Below, piece after piece: positions 1,431 through 13,720 of a DNA stretch of 46,432 nucleotides. The notes under the pieces are model-generated. The model was not told the origin of the DNA. It did not search any database and worked only from the letters and a program-made list of their open reading frames with translations. Position 1 is the first letter of the stretch; every line of letters begins with the position of its first letter. The DNA is from Nitrospiria bacterium (GTDB lineage Bacteria > Nitrospirota > UBA9217), in contig CAKKRC010000087.1 of assembly GCA_919902495.1 (NCBI GenBank), positions 1 to 46,432 of the forward strand. The letters run 5' to 3'. The position numbers and the translations under genes were made by a program.

Positions 1431-2885
1431 TTAGCGGTTCACCGCATACCGCCAGACATGCAGGAGGATCTGTAATATGAGCCCGATCAGCATGAACGGG
1501 ATGAAGAACTTGTACGTCAGGTTTATGAGGAACACGAGCGGCGCGTTGTTGAGGCTCGGCTCATAGTGCGAGAGCCAGGCGTCGGGGAACTCGTCCGAGG
1601 CGCCGGGATGGCACTTTTGGCAGCGTTTCATGAGACGGGCCTTGACAAGGTTCGTCGTCGGCCCCGTGGTCTTGGTGATATCATGGATCCCGTGGCAGTC
1701 GACGCAGGTCGCAATGGATTTCCGGGAGCCGTTCACCTCCGAGGCATCCTTCTGGCTCCTGTATAATTTCAGGGTCACTCCGTGGAAATCCTGGAGATAG
1801 GAATTCACGACGCCGGGGGAGAGGCCGTATTTCTTCATCAGGGTGCCGTCCCCATGGCATTTCCCGCAGATCTCGGGGACCTTGTCCCGGTAATCCTGCG
1901 TATGGGCCCCCTGGATGCTGTGCGCGGTGTGACAGTCGGCGCAGATGGGGACGTCGGTATTGTGGTCCTGGACCAGCGCGGTGCCATGGACGCTCTTCGT
2001 ATAGGTCCCGAAGATGTCCTGGTGACACCTGCCGCACCGCTTCGAACTTTGCAATTTGTCGGCCCGCGCCTGGACGACCGTATGGGCGCCGTGGCAATCG
2101 GTGCAGACCGGGGCCTTGAGGTTCCCCTGGCTCAGGAGGGTATAGTGGATGCTCTCCAGGGTCTTGGTATATTTATCGAAATGACAGCGACGGCAGGCTT
2201 CGGACTGGGCAATGGAAAAATCACGGGGTGAATTGAAATTCCGTTTGGGATGCTGACTTCCGGAGAAGCCAAAGTGGCAGTCGTAGCAGCCGAGCTTGGC
2301 ATGGACCGAACCTTCCAGGGCCGCCGCGTCGACCTTCAAGGAAACCTTGTCACCGCTTCTGAGCCTGATCCCCATGGCATGCTGGTGACAGCGCAGGCAT
2401 TGTTCCTTCTCGGAGCTGAATTTCCGGCCCCCCGCGACGGAGGTGAGCGTATGGGGATTATGGCAGCTCGCGCAGACCGGGGCCTTGTTCTCCTTGGTCA
2501 GGAGAGAGGCATGGACCGGGGACCTCTTCAGTTGTTCATCGGCATGGCATTGGCGGCATATGGCGGAGGACTTGCTGCTGAACTGCTCCCGGCTCCGGAA
2601 TGAGCGCTGCGGATGCCCCTGTCCCTGCCCGGAGAATTCCCCATGGCAGGAGGAGCAGCTCAAGGATTGATGCACGGAAGCCTTGAACTTTTTCGCATCG
2701 ATATAGGCGTCCAGGCTTTCTCCGTTCTGGAACTTGACGGACAGACCTTTTTCGCCATGGCAGCCAAGACACGCACGTACATCCTCCGCCAGGCCCTGTT
2801 CAGCGGTGTATCCCGTCATCGGAGCCGCTACCATTGTCAGGAACAACAGCATGAAGCAAACAGGAAAGTGTTTTCTTCCCGTCAT
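1431..2885 (-). CDS. 13-haem c-type cytochrome with C-terminal membrane anchor
   Basis: Start chosen at the ATG at 2885 because AAGGAGGAC precedes it at good spacing and a signal peptide follows (hydrophobic residues 9-22, cleavage near TGYTA); the frame is open 46 codons further upstream. The 484-residue protein has 13 CXXCH motifs, the first at residues 39-43 (CLGCH) and the last CQKCH near the C-terminus, many followed by G-x-H or N-P-H as in cytochrome c3/c7-like modules. A hydrophobic helix at about 448-478 anchors it to the inner membrane with the haem domain outside. Known family role: electron wires between quinone-linked cytochromes and periplasmic or outer-surface partners. The downstream gene encodes the matching membrane cytochrome b. 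The exact family (OmcX, NrfH-like or other) is not assigned. Confidence 0.9.
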   Translation of the reverse strand: MTGRKHFPVCFMLLFLTMVAAPMTGYTAEQGLAEDVRACLGCHGEKGLSVKFQNGESLDAYIDAKKFKASVHQSLSCSSCHGEFSGQGQGHPQRSFRSREQFSSKSSAICRQCHADEQLKRSPVHASLLTKENKAPVCASCHNPHTLTSVAGGRKFSSEKEQCLRCHQHAMGIRLRSGDKVSLKVDAAALEGSVHAKLGCYDCHFGFSGSQHPKRNFNSPRDFSIAQSEACRRCHFDKYTKTLESIHYTLLSQGNLKAPVCTDCHGAHTVVQARADKLQSSKRCGRCHQDIFGTYTKSVHGTALVQDHNTDVPICADCHTAHSIQGAHTQDYRDKVPEICGKCHGDGTLMKKYGLSPGVVNSYLQDFHGVTLKLYRSQKDASEVNGSRKSIATCVDCHGIHDITKTTGPTTNLVKARLMKRCQKCHPGASDEFPDAWLSHYEPSLNNAPLVFLINLTYKFFIPFMLIGLILQILLHVWRYAVNR

Positions 2886-2940
2886 GGTTGTCCTCCTTGT
2901 CGTGAAAAGATTGTTTCCGTCTGTTTTCGTACTGTTCCCT

Positions 2941-2949
2941 ACTATAGCA
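2941..2949 (-). promoter_or_regulatory. Extended -10 promoter of the cytochrome operon
   Basis: On the minus strand TGCTATAGT occurs (TATAGT at 2946-2941 preceded by TGC), an extended -10. No good -35 hexamer lies 16-18 bp upstream, which would fit an activator-dependent promoter. A 5' leader of about 50 nt is predicted. Confidence 0.45.
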
Positions 2950-2996
2950 GAGGAACAGGAAGGGTGGTAGTGGGAAAAGTTCTTATCCGCCCTGGT

Positions 2997-3010
2997 ATTT
3001 GTTCCTAGGA
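2997..3010. promoter_or_regulatory. ATTTGTTCCTAGGA putative operator site
   Basis: Contains the palindrome TCCTAGGA (3003-3010), centred about 63 bp upstream of the -10 of the 13-haem cytochrome operon. The same 9-mer GTTCCTAGG occurs twice upstream of the membrane protein gene at 14040-14405. CTAG is generally rare in bacterial DNA, so the recurrence suggests a protein-binding site. The regulator is unknown. Confidence 0.4.
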
Positions 3011-3032
3011 CCGGTATGTGCATAGGGCCGTT

Positions 3033-7704: not shown

Positions 7705-8091
7705 ATGAAGAAGATCCTCGTGGAATGGTTCTGCTATGACAAGGCAGGGCAGACCTGCGGCAGGTGCGATGAAAGCTTCCAGGTCATTAAAAGGACCGTG
7801 GAAAAAATGCTGCCGGTCCTGACCGAGCGGGACATCGTCGTCGATCTCAAGGCGCACCTGCTCGATGAGAGCAGGATCGATCACTCCAACACCGTGACCA
7901 TCAACGGCAAGGACATCCTGCATCTGTTGAACGAACGGGACGATATCTTTACGTTCTGCCGTTCCTGTACAACGATCACCGGAAAACCAACGGAATGCAG
8001 GGCTTTTATCTATAAGGAAAAGGCCTATGAGTCCATTCCCGAGGAAATGCTGAGGGAAGCCATTCTGCAAGAGGCGTCAGCGCTGCCCTAG
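7705..8091 (+). CDS. DUF2703-like cysteine protein of a thiol/arsenic cluster
   Basis: 128 residues starting MKKILVEWFCYDKAGQTC. An early CGRC pair, SNTVTINGKDI in the middle and CRSC later match my recollection of DUF2703 proteins, small thioredoxin-fold-like proteins of anaerobes often found near redox-active disulfide proteins and arsenic genes. The function is not established. Ribosome site AAGGGAG. It is followed 20 bp later by a glutaredoxin-like protein, and then by an arsenate reductase beyond a repeat element, so a role in thiol chemistry or metal(loid) handling is a reasonable inference. Confidence 0.7.
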   Translation: MKKILVEWFCYDKAGQTCGRCDESFQVIKRTVEKMLPVLTERDIVVDLKAHLLDESRIDHSNTVTINGKDILHLLNERDDIFTFCRSCTTITGKPTECRAFIYKEKAYESIPEEMLREAILQEASALP

Positions 8092-8111
8092 GCAGGGCGA
8101 GGAGGACCATC

Positions 8112-8354
8112 ATGGTGATCAAGGTGTTGGGTCCCGGCAGCCTCAATTGCCAGAAGTTGGAGGAGATGGTCAAGGTCGCCGTCAAGGAGCTCGGGGTCGA
8201 CGCTACCCTGGTAAAGATCACCGATATCGGAGAGATCGTCAAGTACGGCATCGTGTCCACGCCGGGGCTCATCGTGAACGGAAAGGTAAAACATTCCGGC
8301 AAACTGCTACCGGACATGGAACGGATCAAATCTCTTATCAAGGAAGAGATGTAG
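8112..8354 (+). CDS. Small glutaredoxin-like (TM0996/MTH895 type) protein lacking the first active-site Cys
   Basis: 80 residues with the compact thioredoxin fold of archaeal/bacterial redox-active disulfide protein 2: strand VIKVLGPG, helix with the active site, VSTPGLIVNGKV (cis-Pro loop) and a C-terminal helix. The usual active site is G-x-G-C-x-x-C; here it reads GPGSLNC, so the first cysteine is serine (AGC codon) and only one active-site thiol remains. That would rule out a classic CXXC dithiol exchange and leave a monothiol or scaffold role. Ribosome site GGAGG. It is paired with the DUF2703-like gene just upstream. Confidence 0.8.
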   Translation: MVIKVLGPGSLNCQKLEEMVKVAVKELGVDATLVKITDIGEIVKYGIVSTPGLIVNGKVKHSGKLLPDMERIKSLIKEEM

Positions 8355-8372
8355 GCGGGCGGGCAACCGACG

Positions 8373-8400
8373 CGCCACGAAGATACAAGGCACGAAGAAA
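8373..8400 (+). repeat. Half-copy of the CCACGAAG dispersed repeat
   Basis: CGCCACGAAGATACAAGGCA followed by CGAAGAAA closely resembles the left arm of the element at 20106-20186 (CGCCACTAAGACACAAAGGC). Only one arm is present here. Just downstream, CCGTAGC (8410-8416) and GCTACGG (8422-8428) form a separate small hairpin. Confidence 0.6.
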
Positions 8401-8446
8401 TGAACCTCTCCGTAGCAACAGGCTACGGGTATATTGCTTTTAACTC

Positions 8447-8541
8447 TCCCCTCCCTTCGAGGGGAGGGGACCAAGGGGAGTGTGAAGTATCCGGCGTTCG
8501 TGATCATCACCCCCACCTAACCTCCCCCATCAAGGGGGAGG
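8447..8541. repeat. Twin-hairpin intergenic repeat (REP/MITE-like)
   Basis: Two GC-rich hairpins face each other: TCCCCTCCC (8447-8455) with GGGAGGGGA (8462-8470), and CCTCCCCC (8521-8528) with GGGGGAGG (8534-8541). Between them lie GGGGAGTG and CACCCCC in inverted orientation, so the whole unit is roughly palindromic. Similar boilerplate repeats are common between genes in many bacteria. It separates the glutaredoxin-like gene from the arsenate reductase gene. Confidence 0.65.
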
Positions 8542-8574
8542 AACTAAAATCCAGGTTCCCATGATGGTGTCCCC

Positions 8575-9012
8575 ATGTTGAAGGTGATGTTCCTCTGTAC
8601 CGGAAATTCCTGCCGGAGCCAGATGGCGGAAGGGTTCGCGCGGTCACTCGGTGAGGGGCTCATTGAGGCGCACAGCGCAGGCCTGATGGCGGCAGGGGTC
8701 AACCCGCGGGCCATCGCTGTCATGGAGGAGGCCGGCATCGACATTTCCCGCCAACGATCGCGGGAGATCGATCCGAACCTGCTCAAGACCATGGATATCG
8801 TTATCACCCTCTGCGACAACGCCGCTGAGGCCTGTCCCGTCACTCCGCCCGCCATACAGCGGATCCATTGGCCTGTCAAGGACCCGGTAGGGGCCGTCGG
8901 TACCGGTGAAGAGATCATGAAGGAATTCCGACGGGCCAGGGACGAGATCCGCAAGAAGGTCGAGGGTTTTGTCCGCGACCTTCCACCTGCCGTGCCAACG
9001 TCCCGGACCTGA
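8575..9012 (+). CDS. arsC: Arsenate reductase, low-molecular-weight phosphatase (thioredoxin-coupled) type
   Basis: 145 residues. The phosphatase loop CTGNSCRS starts at C8 (nucleophile) with C13 in the loop. The two redox cysteines of thioredoxin-coupled ArsC are present at C80 and C87 (TLCDNAAEACP), and the general acid Asp is in VKDP (D103). It reduces arsenate to arsenite in the cytoplasm through a C8-C80-C87 disulfide cascade regenerated by thioredoxin. No obvious Shine-Dalgarno precedes the ATG. No ArsR or dedicated arsenite efflux gene is adjacent; the nearest ArsB/NhaD-like permease is 26 kb away. Confidence 0.92.
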   Translation: MLKVMFLCTGNSCRSQMAEGFARSLGEGLIEAHSAGLMAAGVNPRAIAVMEEAGIDISRQRSREIDPNLLKTMDIVITLCDNAAEACPVTPPAIQRIHWPVKDPVGAVGTGEEIMKEFRRARDEIRKKVEGFVRDLPPAVPTSRT

Positions 9013-9116: not shown

Positions 9117-9422
9117 ATGGTAAGTATTACTGACGGTGCGGTAACGAAGTTCAAGGAAGTGGTCACCCAGCAGGGTACCGCAGGCGACGGGGTAAGGATA
9201 TTCCTCGTCCCCGGTGGCTGAAGCCCCTCATTGGCTATGGACGTAGCCAAAGCCGCCCAGGCGGGCGACATAACCCTCGAACAGAACGGCCTGAAGGTAT
9301 TTCTGGAGGACCGGGCGAACCAGATGCTTAACAGCACGGTCATCGATTTCGCCGAGGGACAGGGTTTCGTGCTGTCCGGCATGCAGAAAGAAAGCTCCTC
9401 CTGCGGCTCCTGCAGCTGCTGA
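9117..9422 (+). CDS. HesB/IscA-like selenoprotein (in-frame UGA read as Sec)
   Basis: From ATG 9117 the frame is open to TGA at 9420-9422 apart from one internal TGA at 9219-9221 (codon 35), giving 101 residues with U35. Context is LVPGGUSPSLAMDVAK: in IscA/HesB A-type scaffold proteins the first conserved Cys sits exactly here. The C-terminus SSSCGSCSC supplies the other cysteines, replacing the usual C-G-C of IscA. A family of HesB-related selenoproteins is established (TIGRFAMs HesB_rel_seleno), which supports the reading. A hairpin nine bases after the UGA is a good SECIS candidate. Likely role: binding or delivering iron-sulfur clusters, or iron, in the cytoplasm; SufC and SufB genes follow. 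Standard gene calling would miss it or call only the 3' part. Confidence 0.9.
9231..9250 (+). promoter_or_regulatory. Candidate bacterial SECIS hairpin
   Basis: TTGGCTA (9231-9237) pairs perfectly with TAGCCAA (9244-9250) around the loop TGGACG. The loop begins 17 nt after the UGA and has G in its second position, as bacterial SECIS elements require for SelB binding. Confidence 0.75.
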
Positions 9423-9616: not shown

Positions 9617-10342
9617 ATGCCTATGCTGGAGATCAATGACCTGGTCTATACGGCCGACGTGCTGAGGCCTTCGCGCATCCTTGACGGGCTCACGTTCTCC
9701 GTCGAGGCGGGGGAGGTCCACGCGCTGCTCGGCGCGAACGGGACCGGGAAGAGCACGCTGGCCTATCTTATCATGGGATGCGGAGGATACCGGCCCGCGT
9801 CCGGCGACATCCTGTTCGAGGGAAGCGCCCTCGGTCACCGGCCGATCCACGAGCGGGCCCGGCTGGGCATCACCATGGCATGGCAGGAGCCGGTTCGGTT
9901 CGAAGGGATCACCGTGAACGATTACCTCACCTTCCGGAACAAGGGTGCGGACACGGCGGAGCTCCTGGCGCTCGTGGGCCTGAACCCTGCGCTCTATGGC
10001 TGCCGGATGGTGGACCGCGCCCTGAGCGGCGGTGAACGGAAGCGGATCGAACTGGCGTCCATCCTCGTGCTCCGGCCGAAGCTTGCCATACTCGACGAAC
10101 CCGATTCGGGGATCGACATGCTCTCCACGAACGACATCATCAACGTGATCACCGCTTTCAAGCGGAACGGTGCGGCGGTCCTGCTGATCACCCACCGCGA
10201 GGAGATCGCCATGATCGCAGACCGGTCCTCGCAGCTGTGCAACGGCCGGATCATCTGCTCCGGCGACCCGGCGAAGGTGGCCGAGCATTACAAGTCGCGG
10301 CATTGCATGACCTGCAGCGACGGGGAGTGCCACTATGTCTGA
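9617..10342 (+). CDS. sufC: SufC-like ATPase of a minimal SUF system
   Basis: 241 residues. Walker A GANGTGKST (39-47), signature LSGGE (136-140), Walker B LAILDE (156-161) and H-loop H193 identify an ABC ATPase; the PDSGID after Walker B is SufC-like. It works with the SufB/D-type scaffold encoded next to build Fe-S clusters in the cytoplasm. The two genes overlap by 8 bp, indicating translational coupling. No SufS, SufU or SufE lies here, so this is the two-gene form seen in archaea and many anaerobes. Unusual: a C-terminal tail with three cysteines (C230, C233, C238 in HCMTCSDGEC), which I do not recognise as a normal SufC feature. Confidence 0.93.
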   Translation: MPMLEINDLVYTADVLRPSRILDGLTFSVEAGEVHALLGANGTGKSTLAYLIMGCGGYRPASGDILFEGSALGHRPIHERARLGITMAWQEPVRFEGITVNDYLTFRNKGADTAELLALVGLNPALYGCRMVDRALSGGERKRIELASILVLRPKLAILDEPDSGIDMLSTNDIINVITAFKRNGAAVLLITHREEIAMIADRSSQLCNGRIICSGDPAKVAEHYKSRHCMTCSDGECHYV

Positions 10343-11270
10343 GCTCGAAGAACTGATCGCATGTTTCAGCGGCGCGGGCGGCGACGAGAAGGCCCTTGCC
10401 GACGCGGCGTCGGCTCACCTGGCCGCGAGCGGTCACCGCATCCTGAGCAGCCGCACGGTCGAAGGTCTGGTGGTCGACGCCCGGGGGACCTGGAACGGTA
10501 TACGCGCGCGGGTGACGGTGAAAGCCGGCGTGAAGCTCCGGAACCCCGTTCACATGTGCTTCGGCGTTCTCCACAAGAAGGGGACGCAGAAGATCGAGAT
10601 GGACGTCCGGCTGGAGGAGGGGGCGTCGGCGCACTTTATCGCCCACTGCCTTTTTCCGAAGGCCGAGAAGGTGCGGCACATCATGGATGCCACCGTGAGC
10701 ATCGGTGAAGGCGCTGAGATGAGGTATAGCGAGACGCATTATCACGGTCTCTCCGGCGGGGTCGAGGTGGTGCCGAAGCTGTCGGTCCAGGTGGGCAGGA
10801 ACGGCCGTTATTTCACCGATTTCACGTTGACGACGGGCAGGGTGGGAAAGCTCGCGATCGATTATACCGTCGAGGTAGCGGAGAATGCCGTTGCCGAGCT
10901 GACGGCGCGCGTGTTCGGCCACGGGTCAGACGACATCCATATCCGGGACAAGGTCCTGCTTACCGGGAAGAACGCGCGCGGCCTGATCAAGACCCGGGTA
11001 GCCATCGAGGACGACGCCACCGCCGAGGTCACGGGCATCACCGAGGGCAACGCTTCAGGAGCGCGGGGCCACGTGGACTGCATGGAGATCGTAAAGGACC
11101 GGGCCGTGGCAAGGGCCATCCCCATCGTTCAGGTGAACGACCCCGGGGCGAAGGTGACCCACGAAGCGGCCATCGGCAGCGTGGACAAACGGCAGATGGA
11201 AACGCTCATGGCGCACGGGCTGTTGCCAGAGGAAGCGGTGGATATCATCGTGAAGGGGATGCTGCGGTAG
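10335..11270 (+). CDS. sufB: SufB/SufD-family scaffold of a minimal SUF system
   Basis: 311 residues, about two-thirds the length of classical SufB, matching the short homologues of two-gene SUF systems. The sequence is dominated by beta-helix-type repeats (TVSIGEGAEMRYSETHYH, NGRYFTDFTLTTG), and the C-terminal part carries the conserved region ITEGNASGARGHVDCMEI, NDPGAKVTHEAAIGSVDKRQ and a final helical LLPEEAVDIIVKGML, all typical of SufB/D. The cysteine in HVDCME aligns with the region used for cluster handling. It probably forms B2C2 complexes with SufC. Coupled to sufC by the ATGTCTGA overlap. Confidence 0.92.
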   Translation: MSELEELIACFSGAGGDEKALADAASAHLAASGHRILSSRTVEGLVVDARGTWNGIRARVTVKAGVKLRNPVHMCFGVLHKKGTQKIEMDVRLEEGASAHFIAHCLFPKAEKVRHIMDATVSIGEGAEMRYSETHYHGLSGGVEVVPKLSVQVGRNGRYFTDFTLTTGRVGKLAIDYTVEVAENAVAELTARVFGHGSDDIHIRDKVLLTGKNARGLIKTRVAIEDDATAEVTGITEGNASGARGHVDCMEIVKDRAVARAIPIVQVNDPGAKVTHEAAIGSVDKRQMETLMAHGLLPEEAVDIIVKGMLR

Positions 11271-12325: not shown

Positions 12326-12365
12326 AACACCGGCGGGTTTTATCTCCCGCCGGTGTTAGTTTTAT
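12326..12365 (+). terminator. Intrinsic terminator of the OmpA-type gene
   Basis: A perfect 12-bp stem, AACACCGGCGGG (12326-12337) with CCCGCCGGTGTT (12346-12357), loop of 8 nt, followed by AGTTTTATT. It lies between convergent genes and may also act on the leftward cytochrome transcript. Confidence 0.88.
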
Positions 12366-12406: not shown

Positions 12407-13720
12407 CTACACCCCACCCTTCTCCAGCGTGATCTTCTTCGTAACCTTGTGCCACGTGATGCCGCTGTCCTTTTCACCGAAGGGCATGTAGATAAGTTCG
12501 ATGTCAACGGTCATCTCGTGGTCGAGGATGTTCGTGACGCTCTTGCCGTCCTTTTTCAGGTATTCGGCGGGATAGGGTATTTCGAAGTTCTCCTGCACGG
12601 GCCTGTTGGGCGGCAGGCCGTTGTCGCGGATAATGCCGCTCTTTTCATAGGGCCCGCGGCCCATCTTGTCGCCGCGGCCGAGCTGCTGGGGAATAGGCAT
12701 GTAGATACGGGTATGCTTCGCTATCTGATTTCCTTTTGAATCTTTCGCGGTCACTTCCAGGACCAGCCGGTTGGGGGTTGGTCAGCCGTCGGGGATGGAG
12801 TGTCCGGCGCGGTTGATCATCTCGATCTTGACCAGCGCCTGGGGCATCATCTTCGATCCATCGCGCCAGATGTAGCCCAGGGTCTCGACCTGGAAGTCCA
12901 CGGCGCTCTTGCCCATGTTGAGGTCGTTGTAGCTCTGCATGTTGTGGCCGAGTTTGCTCTTCTTCATGTGGCATTCCTGGCAGCTTTCCTGTCCGCCTTC
13001 CGCCCGGTAGGCCCAGAGGTAGCTCCCGTAGAGCGTGCCGCACTGCGACGGGTTCTCAAGTTCGAAGTTCGGACCGAGGCCGTGGCACTGGCCGCAGAGG
13101 ATGGATTCGGACATGATGGGGCTCTTCTTCATGACCGGATGGCCTGGATCGGGATGGCTTCCTTCCTTGGAGCCGTAGACCTCGTTCTTCTGCGGGAACC
13201 CGTCGACCCACTTGTGGGTGATTGCGTTTCGCTGGTGGCAGACGAGGCAGTTGATGCTGACCTTGATCAGTTGCTGCTCCGCCTTGTTCCTCGCGTCATC
13301 GCCGGACTTGGGGTCCATGAAGATATTGACGTTCCTCACGATCTCCTTGGCCACGTCGTCCGTGGCGTCGGCCAACTGGGGGAGGTGGCATTTCGTGCAG
13401 ATGGCAAGATGCCGGTTTTCAACGTCCTCGGGCTTTTTGACGCCCGAATGCTTCCAGCCCATGAGCCCCACGGTGATCGTGGTCTTGATGGTCGCCGCGG
13501 TCCGGCCGGTGCCGTAGATCGATTTGGCATGGAGCGATTTCTCCCAGTCCTTGTATATCTCCTCATGGCACTCTTTGCACCCGGTGGAGTCGTACATCTT
13601 TGCCAGTTCGTCTATGGTCCTCGCTTTCCTGCCCTCGACCGACGCGGTCTGACCCGGTAATGGCGTCAGGAGCGGCAGCGCGAGTAATGCCATAACTGCT
13701 GCGGTTGTTACTACCCTCAT
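12407..13720 (-). CDS. Pentahaem c-type cytochrome with in-frame UGA, probable selenoprotein
   Basis: Read leftward from ATG 13720 (strong AAAGGAG), the frame is open to 12407 except for one TGA at 12784-12782 (codon 313), giving 437 residues if UGA is Sec. A signal peptide ends near residue 25. Five CXXCH motifs are at residues 48-52 (CKECH), 108-112 (CTKCH), 158-162 (CLVCH), 209-213 (CGQCH) and 247-251 (CQECH). The UGA sits in GHSIPDG-U-PTPNRLVLEV; the reading frame, amino-acid style and codon use continue without break for 124 residues as a beta-rich C-terminal domain, which argues against a random nonsense mutation. As I recall related multihaem proteins, this position is Cys in a GHxIPDGCP motif. 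A short hairpin follows the UGA. Exported; partner and substrate unknown. Confidence 0.85.
12757..12770 (-). promoter_or_regulatory. Weak SECIS-like hairpin downstream of the cytochrome UGA
   Basis: On the minus strand CCGG (12770-12767) pairs with CTGG (12760-12757), one G-U pair, enclosing the loop CTGGTC. The loop contains GGTC, as in the E. coli fdhF SECIS apical loop, and begins 16 nt after the UGA. The stem is only 4 bp, so support is modest. Confidence 0.35.

Follow-up and report, generated by a model that had tools for sequence, protein, structure and literature searches.

The locus and its genes

The DNA studied here, which we call the window, is a stretch of 46,432 nucleotides from a Nitrospiria bacterium. 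On its minus strand, from 13720 to 12407, is a frame of 437 codons interrupted by a single TGA (12784-12782) and closed by TAG. As the initial annotation had described, five CXXCH motifs precede this TGA and 124 residues follow it in the same frame, so that read-through would give a product of 437 amino acids with the UGA as residue 313. The haem motifs, all on the minus strand and all invariant in the relatives aligned, are CKECH (residues 48-52, 13565..13579), CTKCH (108-112, 13385..13399), CLVCH (158-162, 13235..13249), CGQCH (209-213, 13082..13096) and CQECH (247-251, 12968..12982). The protein begins with a probable export signal, MRVVTTAAVMALLALPLLTPLPGQ (13649..13720, minus strand), recognised by inspection of the sequence, and the structural model has a helix at residues 2-18.

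The read-through protein matches NCBIfam NF040886, "multiheme c-type cytochrome (seleno)protein ExtKL", over residues 10-432 and scores 569.5 bits, where the cut-off is 250. It has the two features expected of that family, the five CXXCH motifs, which are conserved in the relatives, and selenocysteine (Sec) or cysteine at the conserved GHxxPDG-U/C position. It also matches, over nearly its full length and at about 587 bits, PDB entries 9wt8, 9wta and 9wtb, which are structures of MccSep, a multiheme cytochrome c selenoprotein; entries 9wt9 and 9wtc match at about 587 bits as well and have Ala at the Sec position, 9wt9 being named as the U325A mutant. Our literature search found no publication on MccSep or PDB 9wt8. 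The NF040886 match, the PDB entries 9wt8-9wtc and a prediction made in 2007 thus place the window gene in an already known family. The initial annotation had thought the joining of Sec and haem in one cytochrome unusual, and this is not supported, as descriptions of the family go back to 2007 (PMC1914089) and there are structures in the PDB.

About 50 nt past the TAG, and so beyond the full read-through frame, is a 12-bp inverted repeat with T-rich tails (12326..12357, minus strand, given on the plus strand by the tool; minus-strand sequence AACACCGGCGGG...CCCGCCGGTGTTTATTT) that is likely to be a terminator, perhaps a bidirectional one, and downstream of it is a convergent gene for an OmpA-domain protein. 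The two proteins encoded upstream match nothing in NCBIfam. The neighbours in the window are thus the OmpA-domain protein, SufB- and SufC-like proteins and proteins without an NCBIfam match, and no gene adjoining ours has an NCBIfam porin or rhodanese match. In an ExtHIJKL cluster genes for a rhodanese-like protein (ExtH), a porin (ExtI) and a small protein (ExtJ) are adjacent; none of these adjoins our gene in the window, and among the non-Geobacterales relatives examined there were no conserved neighbours and no ext neighbours.

The family name and the Geobacter genetics (PMC6148476, PMC5877670) would suggest a role in an outer-membrane conduit of the ExtHIJKL kind that carries electrons to metals. 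However, the gene is without ext neighbours in the window and in the examined relatives outside Geobacter, and in G. sulfurreducens the ext cluster is one among several overlapping conduits (PMC6148476). We therefore think a conduit role rather unlikely here, as a lone gene with neither the ext porin nor the rhodanese more likely encodes a reductase or electron carrier that works by itself in the periplasm.

Several other genes in the window are of related interest. A second selenoprotein had been proposed nearby, and in outline this holds: a small HesB/IscA-like ORF (9117-9413, plus strand) has an in-frame TGA at 9219-9221 (VPGGUSPS), and scores 40 bits for NF038090 against a cut-off of 85. 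Small HesB/IscA-like proteins with a UGA in the frame are a known selenoprotein type. It is followed by SufC-like and SufB-like genes (9617-11270). On the plus strand at 7705-9012 there is a run of genes for DF-family (seleno)protein-like, ArsE-like thioredoxin and ArsC-like arsenate reductase proteins, which suggests an arsenic or redox cluster, and at 1434-3023 on the minus strand there is a multihaem cytochrome with 13 CXXCH motifs and weak similarity to DmsE-type decahaem cytochromes.

Selenocysteine at codon 313

The length of the frame beyond the TGA is not sufficient to establish read-through, as open stretches of 124 codons after a TGA are not rare in the window, which is rich in G+C (4.6% of its TGAs precede one as long), and the case is therefore built on homology and on an RNA signal. 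When the window was scanned for further frames of the read-through kind, most of what came up was antisense noise. The G+C content by codon position is 0.54/0.41/0.84 upstream of the TGA and 0.56/0.36/0.77 downstream, so that the pattern continues across it, and the C-terminal part can be aligned with relatives along its entire length.

The best 80 loci in the genome collection all have TGA at codon 313 (80/80). They span Nitrospirota and Desulfobacterota, with scattered representatives in Myxococcota, Acidobacteriota, Krumholzibacteriota and other lineages, the closest named relatives being Nitrospirota metagenome-assembled genomes. A sequencing error or a pseudogene stop would account for a lone in-frame stop, but all 80 loci, which come from independent assemblies, have the identical TGA, so that this explanation is already refuted and we give it practically no weight.

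Among the more distant homologues there are six with Cys at 313, as the initial annotation had suggested might be found: codon 313 is TGC in L019, L020 and L024, and L132-L134 also have Cys. The six are in two separate branches of the maximum-likelihood tree, on which the switch between Sec and Cys requires at least two changes, and the genomes with Cys forms retain SelA. With regard to the capacity to insert Sec, the genome from which the window comes encodes selA, selB, selD and tRNA-Sec, and a SelA match was present in 17 of the 19 relatives checked that have the TGA form, one of the 17 being partial. Neither of the two observations named beforehand as telling against Sec, homologues that end near residue 312 and a genome without the Sec machinery, was made.

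Some related sequences deserve mention in their own right. The selD gene of this genome (contig C28) itself has one in-frame TGA and is a selenoprotein gene; selenoprotein forms of SelD are known from other cases. The same genome has a second ExtKL selenoprotein gene on contig C52 (L131:8800-10089, minus strand), which has the TGA, scores 532 bits and is about 54% identical to the window copy. There is also a second branch of the family in which GHRIPDG-U/C-LW or MW replaces PTPN; it includes L022, L023, L147 and L148 with Sec and L132-L134 with Cys, and is above the NF040886 cut-off where tested.

The RNA signal is a putative SECIS hairpin at 12746..12768 on the minus strand, for which the evidence is synonymous freeze, pairing, compensatory changes and the fold. 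In the group that we call type A, made up of the window and of relatives from Nitrospirota, Desulfobulbaceae and other lineages, there are 71 conserved degenerate codon columns, in which the share of the commonest codon averages 0.48. In columns +7, +8, +10 and +11 after the UGA the share is 1.0, 1.0, 1.0 and 0.92, and these are the four most frozen synonymous columns in the gene. With the UGA numbered as nt 1-3, GGUC at nt 21-24 faces GACC at nt 33-36, and 94.7% of the cells in the type A alignment are paired, with a double change from G-C to A-U in two sequences (L085 and L087). The further pair C25-G31 and the pairs beneath a bulged U20 complete the structure, which reads GC, bulged U and GGUC-C on the 5' side, a UGGAA loop, and G-U-GACC and GC on the 3' side. 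The stem thus has 5 bp, plus 2 bp below the bulged U, and the loop starts 22 nt from the UGA. The initial annotation had GGUC in the loop of a different hairpin, but in that hairpin only 25.5% of cells are paired, and we have dropped it: GGUC belongs to the stem, as its 5' arm, and pairs with GACC.

The bSECIS model has the loop 16-37 nt from the UGA, a stem of 4-16 bp and a free energy of -7.5 kcal/mol or lower (PMC13188914). The window hairpin is within the limits for loop distance and stem length; its 25 nt fold weakly by themselves, with -7.2 kcal/mol (z about -0.7), which is borderline against the limit of -7.5, and the relatives range from -6.9 to -10.5. Single-sequence folding of the region was not significant, for which reason we have relied on comparison, and since RNAalifold gave no pairs on the type A alignment the GGUC/GACC stem was counted directly. 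A scan of the window against Rfam gave no match.

Geobacterales and some others have another hairpin, CCGAC-UGGUUCU-GUCGG, which hardly varies among 27 sequences and in which every cell is paired. There are thus two hairpin architectures at one Sec codon (alignments A2 and A3, L051-L130), with UGG in both loops, 6 nt apart, and we found no earlier description of this for the ExtKL/MccSep family in the literature within our reach. L070 and L108 have a variant with an uninterrupted hairpin of 7-8 bp (CUGGUAC/GUAUCAG). Neither of the two hairpins is present in the three Cys homologues that were read at codon level, and the synonymous freeze is likewise confined to UGA forms.

It is at this point that the possibility of two genes has to be considered, with the UGA a true stop that separates a pentahaem ExtK from a separate ExtL. 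Homologues have been annotated as two genes, those of Geobacter first (PMC6148476, PMC1914089), the split was still held possible in 2007 (PMC1914089), and in the window there is a 115-amino-acid ORF with a GTG start after the stop. However, there are Cys-coding homologues that are fused and uninterrupted, protein-level conservation resumes immediately past the UGA (PDG-U-PxPN), freeze and hairpin go with the UGA, the genome has the Sec machinery, and the MccSep chain in the PDB is one polypeptide with Sec. We consider a split gene very improbable. Taking together the TGA in all 80 close relatives, the Cys in distant homologues and the presence of Sec-decoding genes, we accept the initial proposal of a selenocysteine cytochrome c and conclude with high confidence, from comparison of sequences, that this is an exported member of the ExtKL/MccSep family, a pentahaem cytochrome c with UGA313 predicted to be decoded as Sec.

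Cys227, the histidines and a possible mechanism

Outside the CXXCH motifs Cys227 (13040..13042, minus strand) is the sole invariant Cys in the alignment of relatives. Wherever residues 227 and 313 were both readable, it accompanies Sec or Cys at 313 in every aligned sequence, and it is missing from the 17 distant homologues that have neither. This association spans one deep split in the tree and does not represent many independent events, so that it is suggestive only; we found no earlier description of it in the literature within our reach. The invariant His residues outside the haem motifs are His64, His169, His189, His259 and His307, and His104 is near-invariant. His307 (12800..12802, minus strand) is six residues ahead of Sec313 (12782..12784, minus strand), which is in the loop sequence GHSIPDG-U-PTPNR, and is a candidate distal haem ligand.

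In the AlphaFold2 model (mean pLDDT 68, pTM 0.50) confidence is low for residues 161-236, in the haem core, and for residues 312-315, and for this reason we have read no distance between Cys227 and Sec313 from it. Foldseek matches of the model, apart from PDB 5ze8, were generic beta-sandwich or low-confidence matches.

We take this to be a periplasmic protein whose N-terminal domain has the five haems and whose C-terminal domain is a beta-sandwich, and in which SelB and tRNA-Sec are predicted to decode UGA313 as Sec by way of the hairpin just 3' to it. Sec313 lies at the junction of the haem and beta domains, six residues past His307, and with Cys227 could form a redox-active selenenylsulfide/selenolate pair close to a haem, presumably the His307 haem. 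A substrate at the selenium would then exchange electrons with the chain of haems, the candidate substrate being selenite or another oxidant, as has been suggested for the homologue in Geobacter. Such a redox pair of Sec313 and Cys227, connected to the haems, is the best mechanism we can offer, and we put it forward tentatively. Equally tentative is the suggestion that this centre is the site of a haem-coupled selenoenzyme and not a plain wire, in a family in which the SECIS architecture has changed while the Sec has not moved.

An alternative is that Sec313 is an axial ligand of one haem, or the gate of a five-coordinate catalytic haem, with no pairing to Cys227. The GHxxP motif carries the distal His in many multihaem cytochromes, and the location of Sec313 in this motif, six residues beyond an invariant His, favours such a role. 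However, the five invariant His residues suffice as distal ligands for five haems, with near-invariant His104 in addition, so that selenium is not needed as a ligand, and Cys227 would be left unexplained. We regard Sec as a haem ligand as unlikely, and less favoured than the pairing with Cys227. The association of Cys227 with residue 313 provides a direct and checkable lead on the role of the selenium.

Comparison with known members of the family

In the 2007 computational screen GSU2937 and GSU2936 of Geobacter were predicted to be a single selenoprotein, and neither a SECIS nor Cys homologues were found at that time (PMC1914089). In later papers ExtKL is a cytochrome with five haems for which a Sec is predicted, the link to selenite reduction resting on preliminary data (PMC5877670, PMC6148476), and ExtKL is among the selenoprotein families in a 2026 review (PMC13188914). 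Our analysis supplies the comparative SECIS evidence that was absent from the 2007 prediction, and confirms that ExtKL/MccSep selenocytochromes extend beyond Geobacter to Nitrospirota and a number of further phyla, where they occur without an ext operon.

The Cys forms share the architecture of the window protein and are above the NF040886 cut-off where tested (L019 and L132); they differ in having Cys for Sec, encoded by TGC and with no SECIS sequence in L019, L020 and L024. Of older structures PDB 5ze8, cytochrome c552 from Thermochromatium tepidum and likewise pentahaem, comes nearest in fold (Foldseek E 4.5e-9), but the sequence similarity is weak, with about 19% identity within the fold match. 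The ExtKL of G. sulfurreducens (GSU2937 and GSU2936) shares with our protein the five CXXCH haems, the UGA at the same position and the C-terminal part (PMC1914089). The window copy differs in being without a surrounding ext cluster, and its hairpin has the GGUC/GACC stem and UGGAA loop, whereas that of Geobacterales has the CCGAC/GUCGG stem and UGGUUCU loop. MccSep (9wt8-9wtc) gives a full-length match of 587 bits, with its Sec325 aligned with U313 and Cys227 conserved, and as far as is visible the two differ in sequence only.
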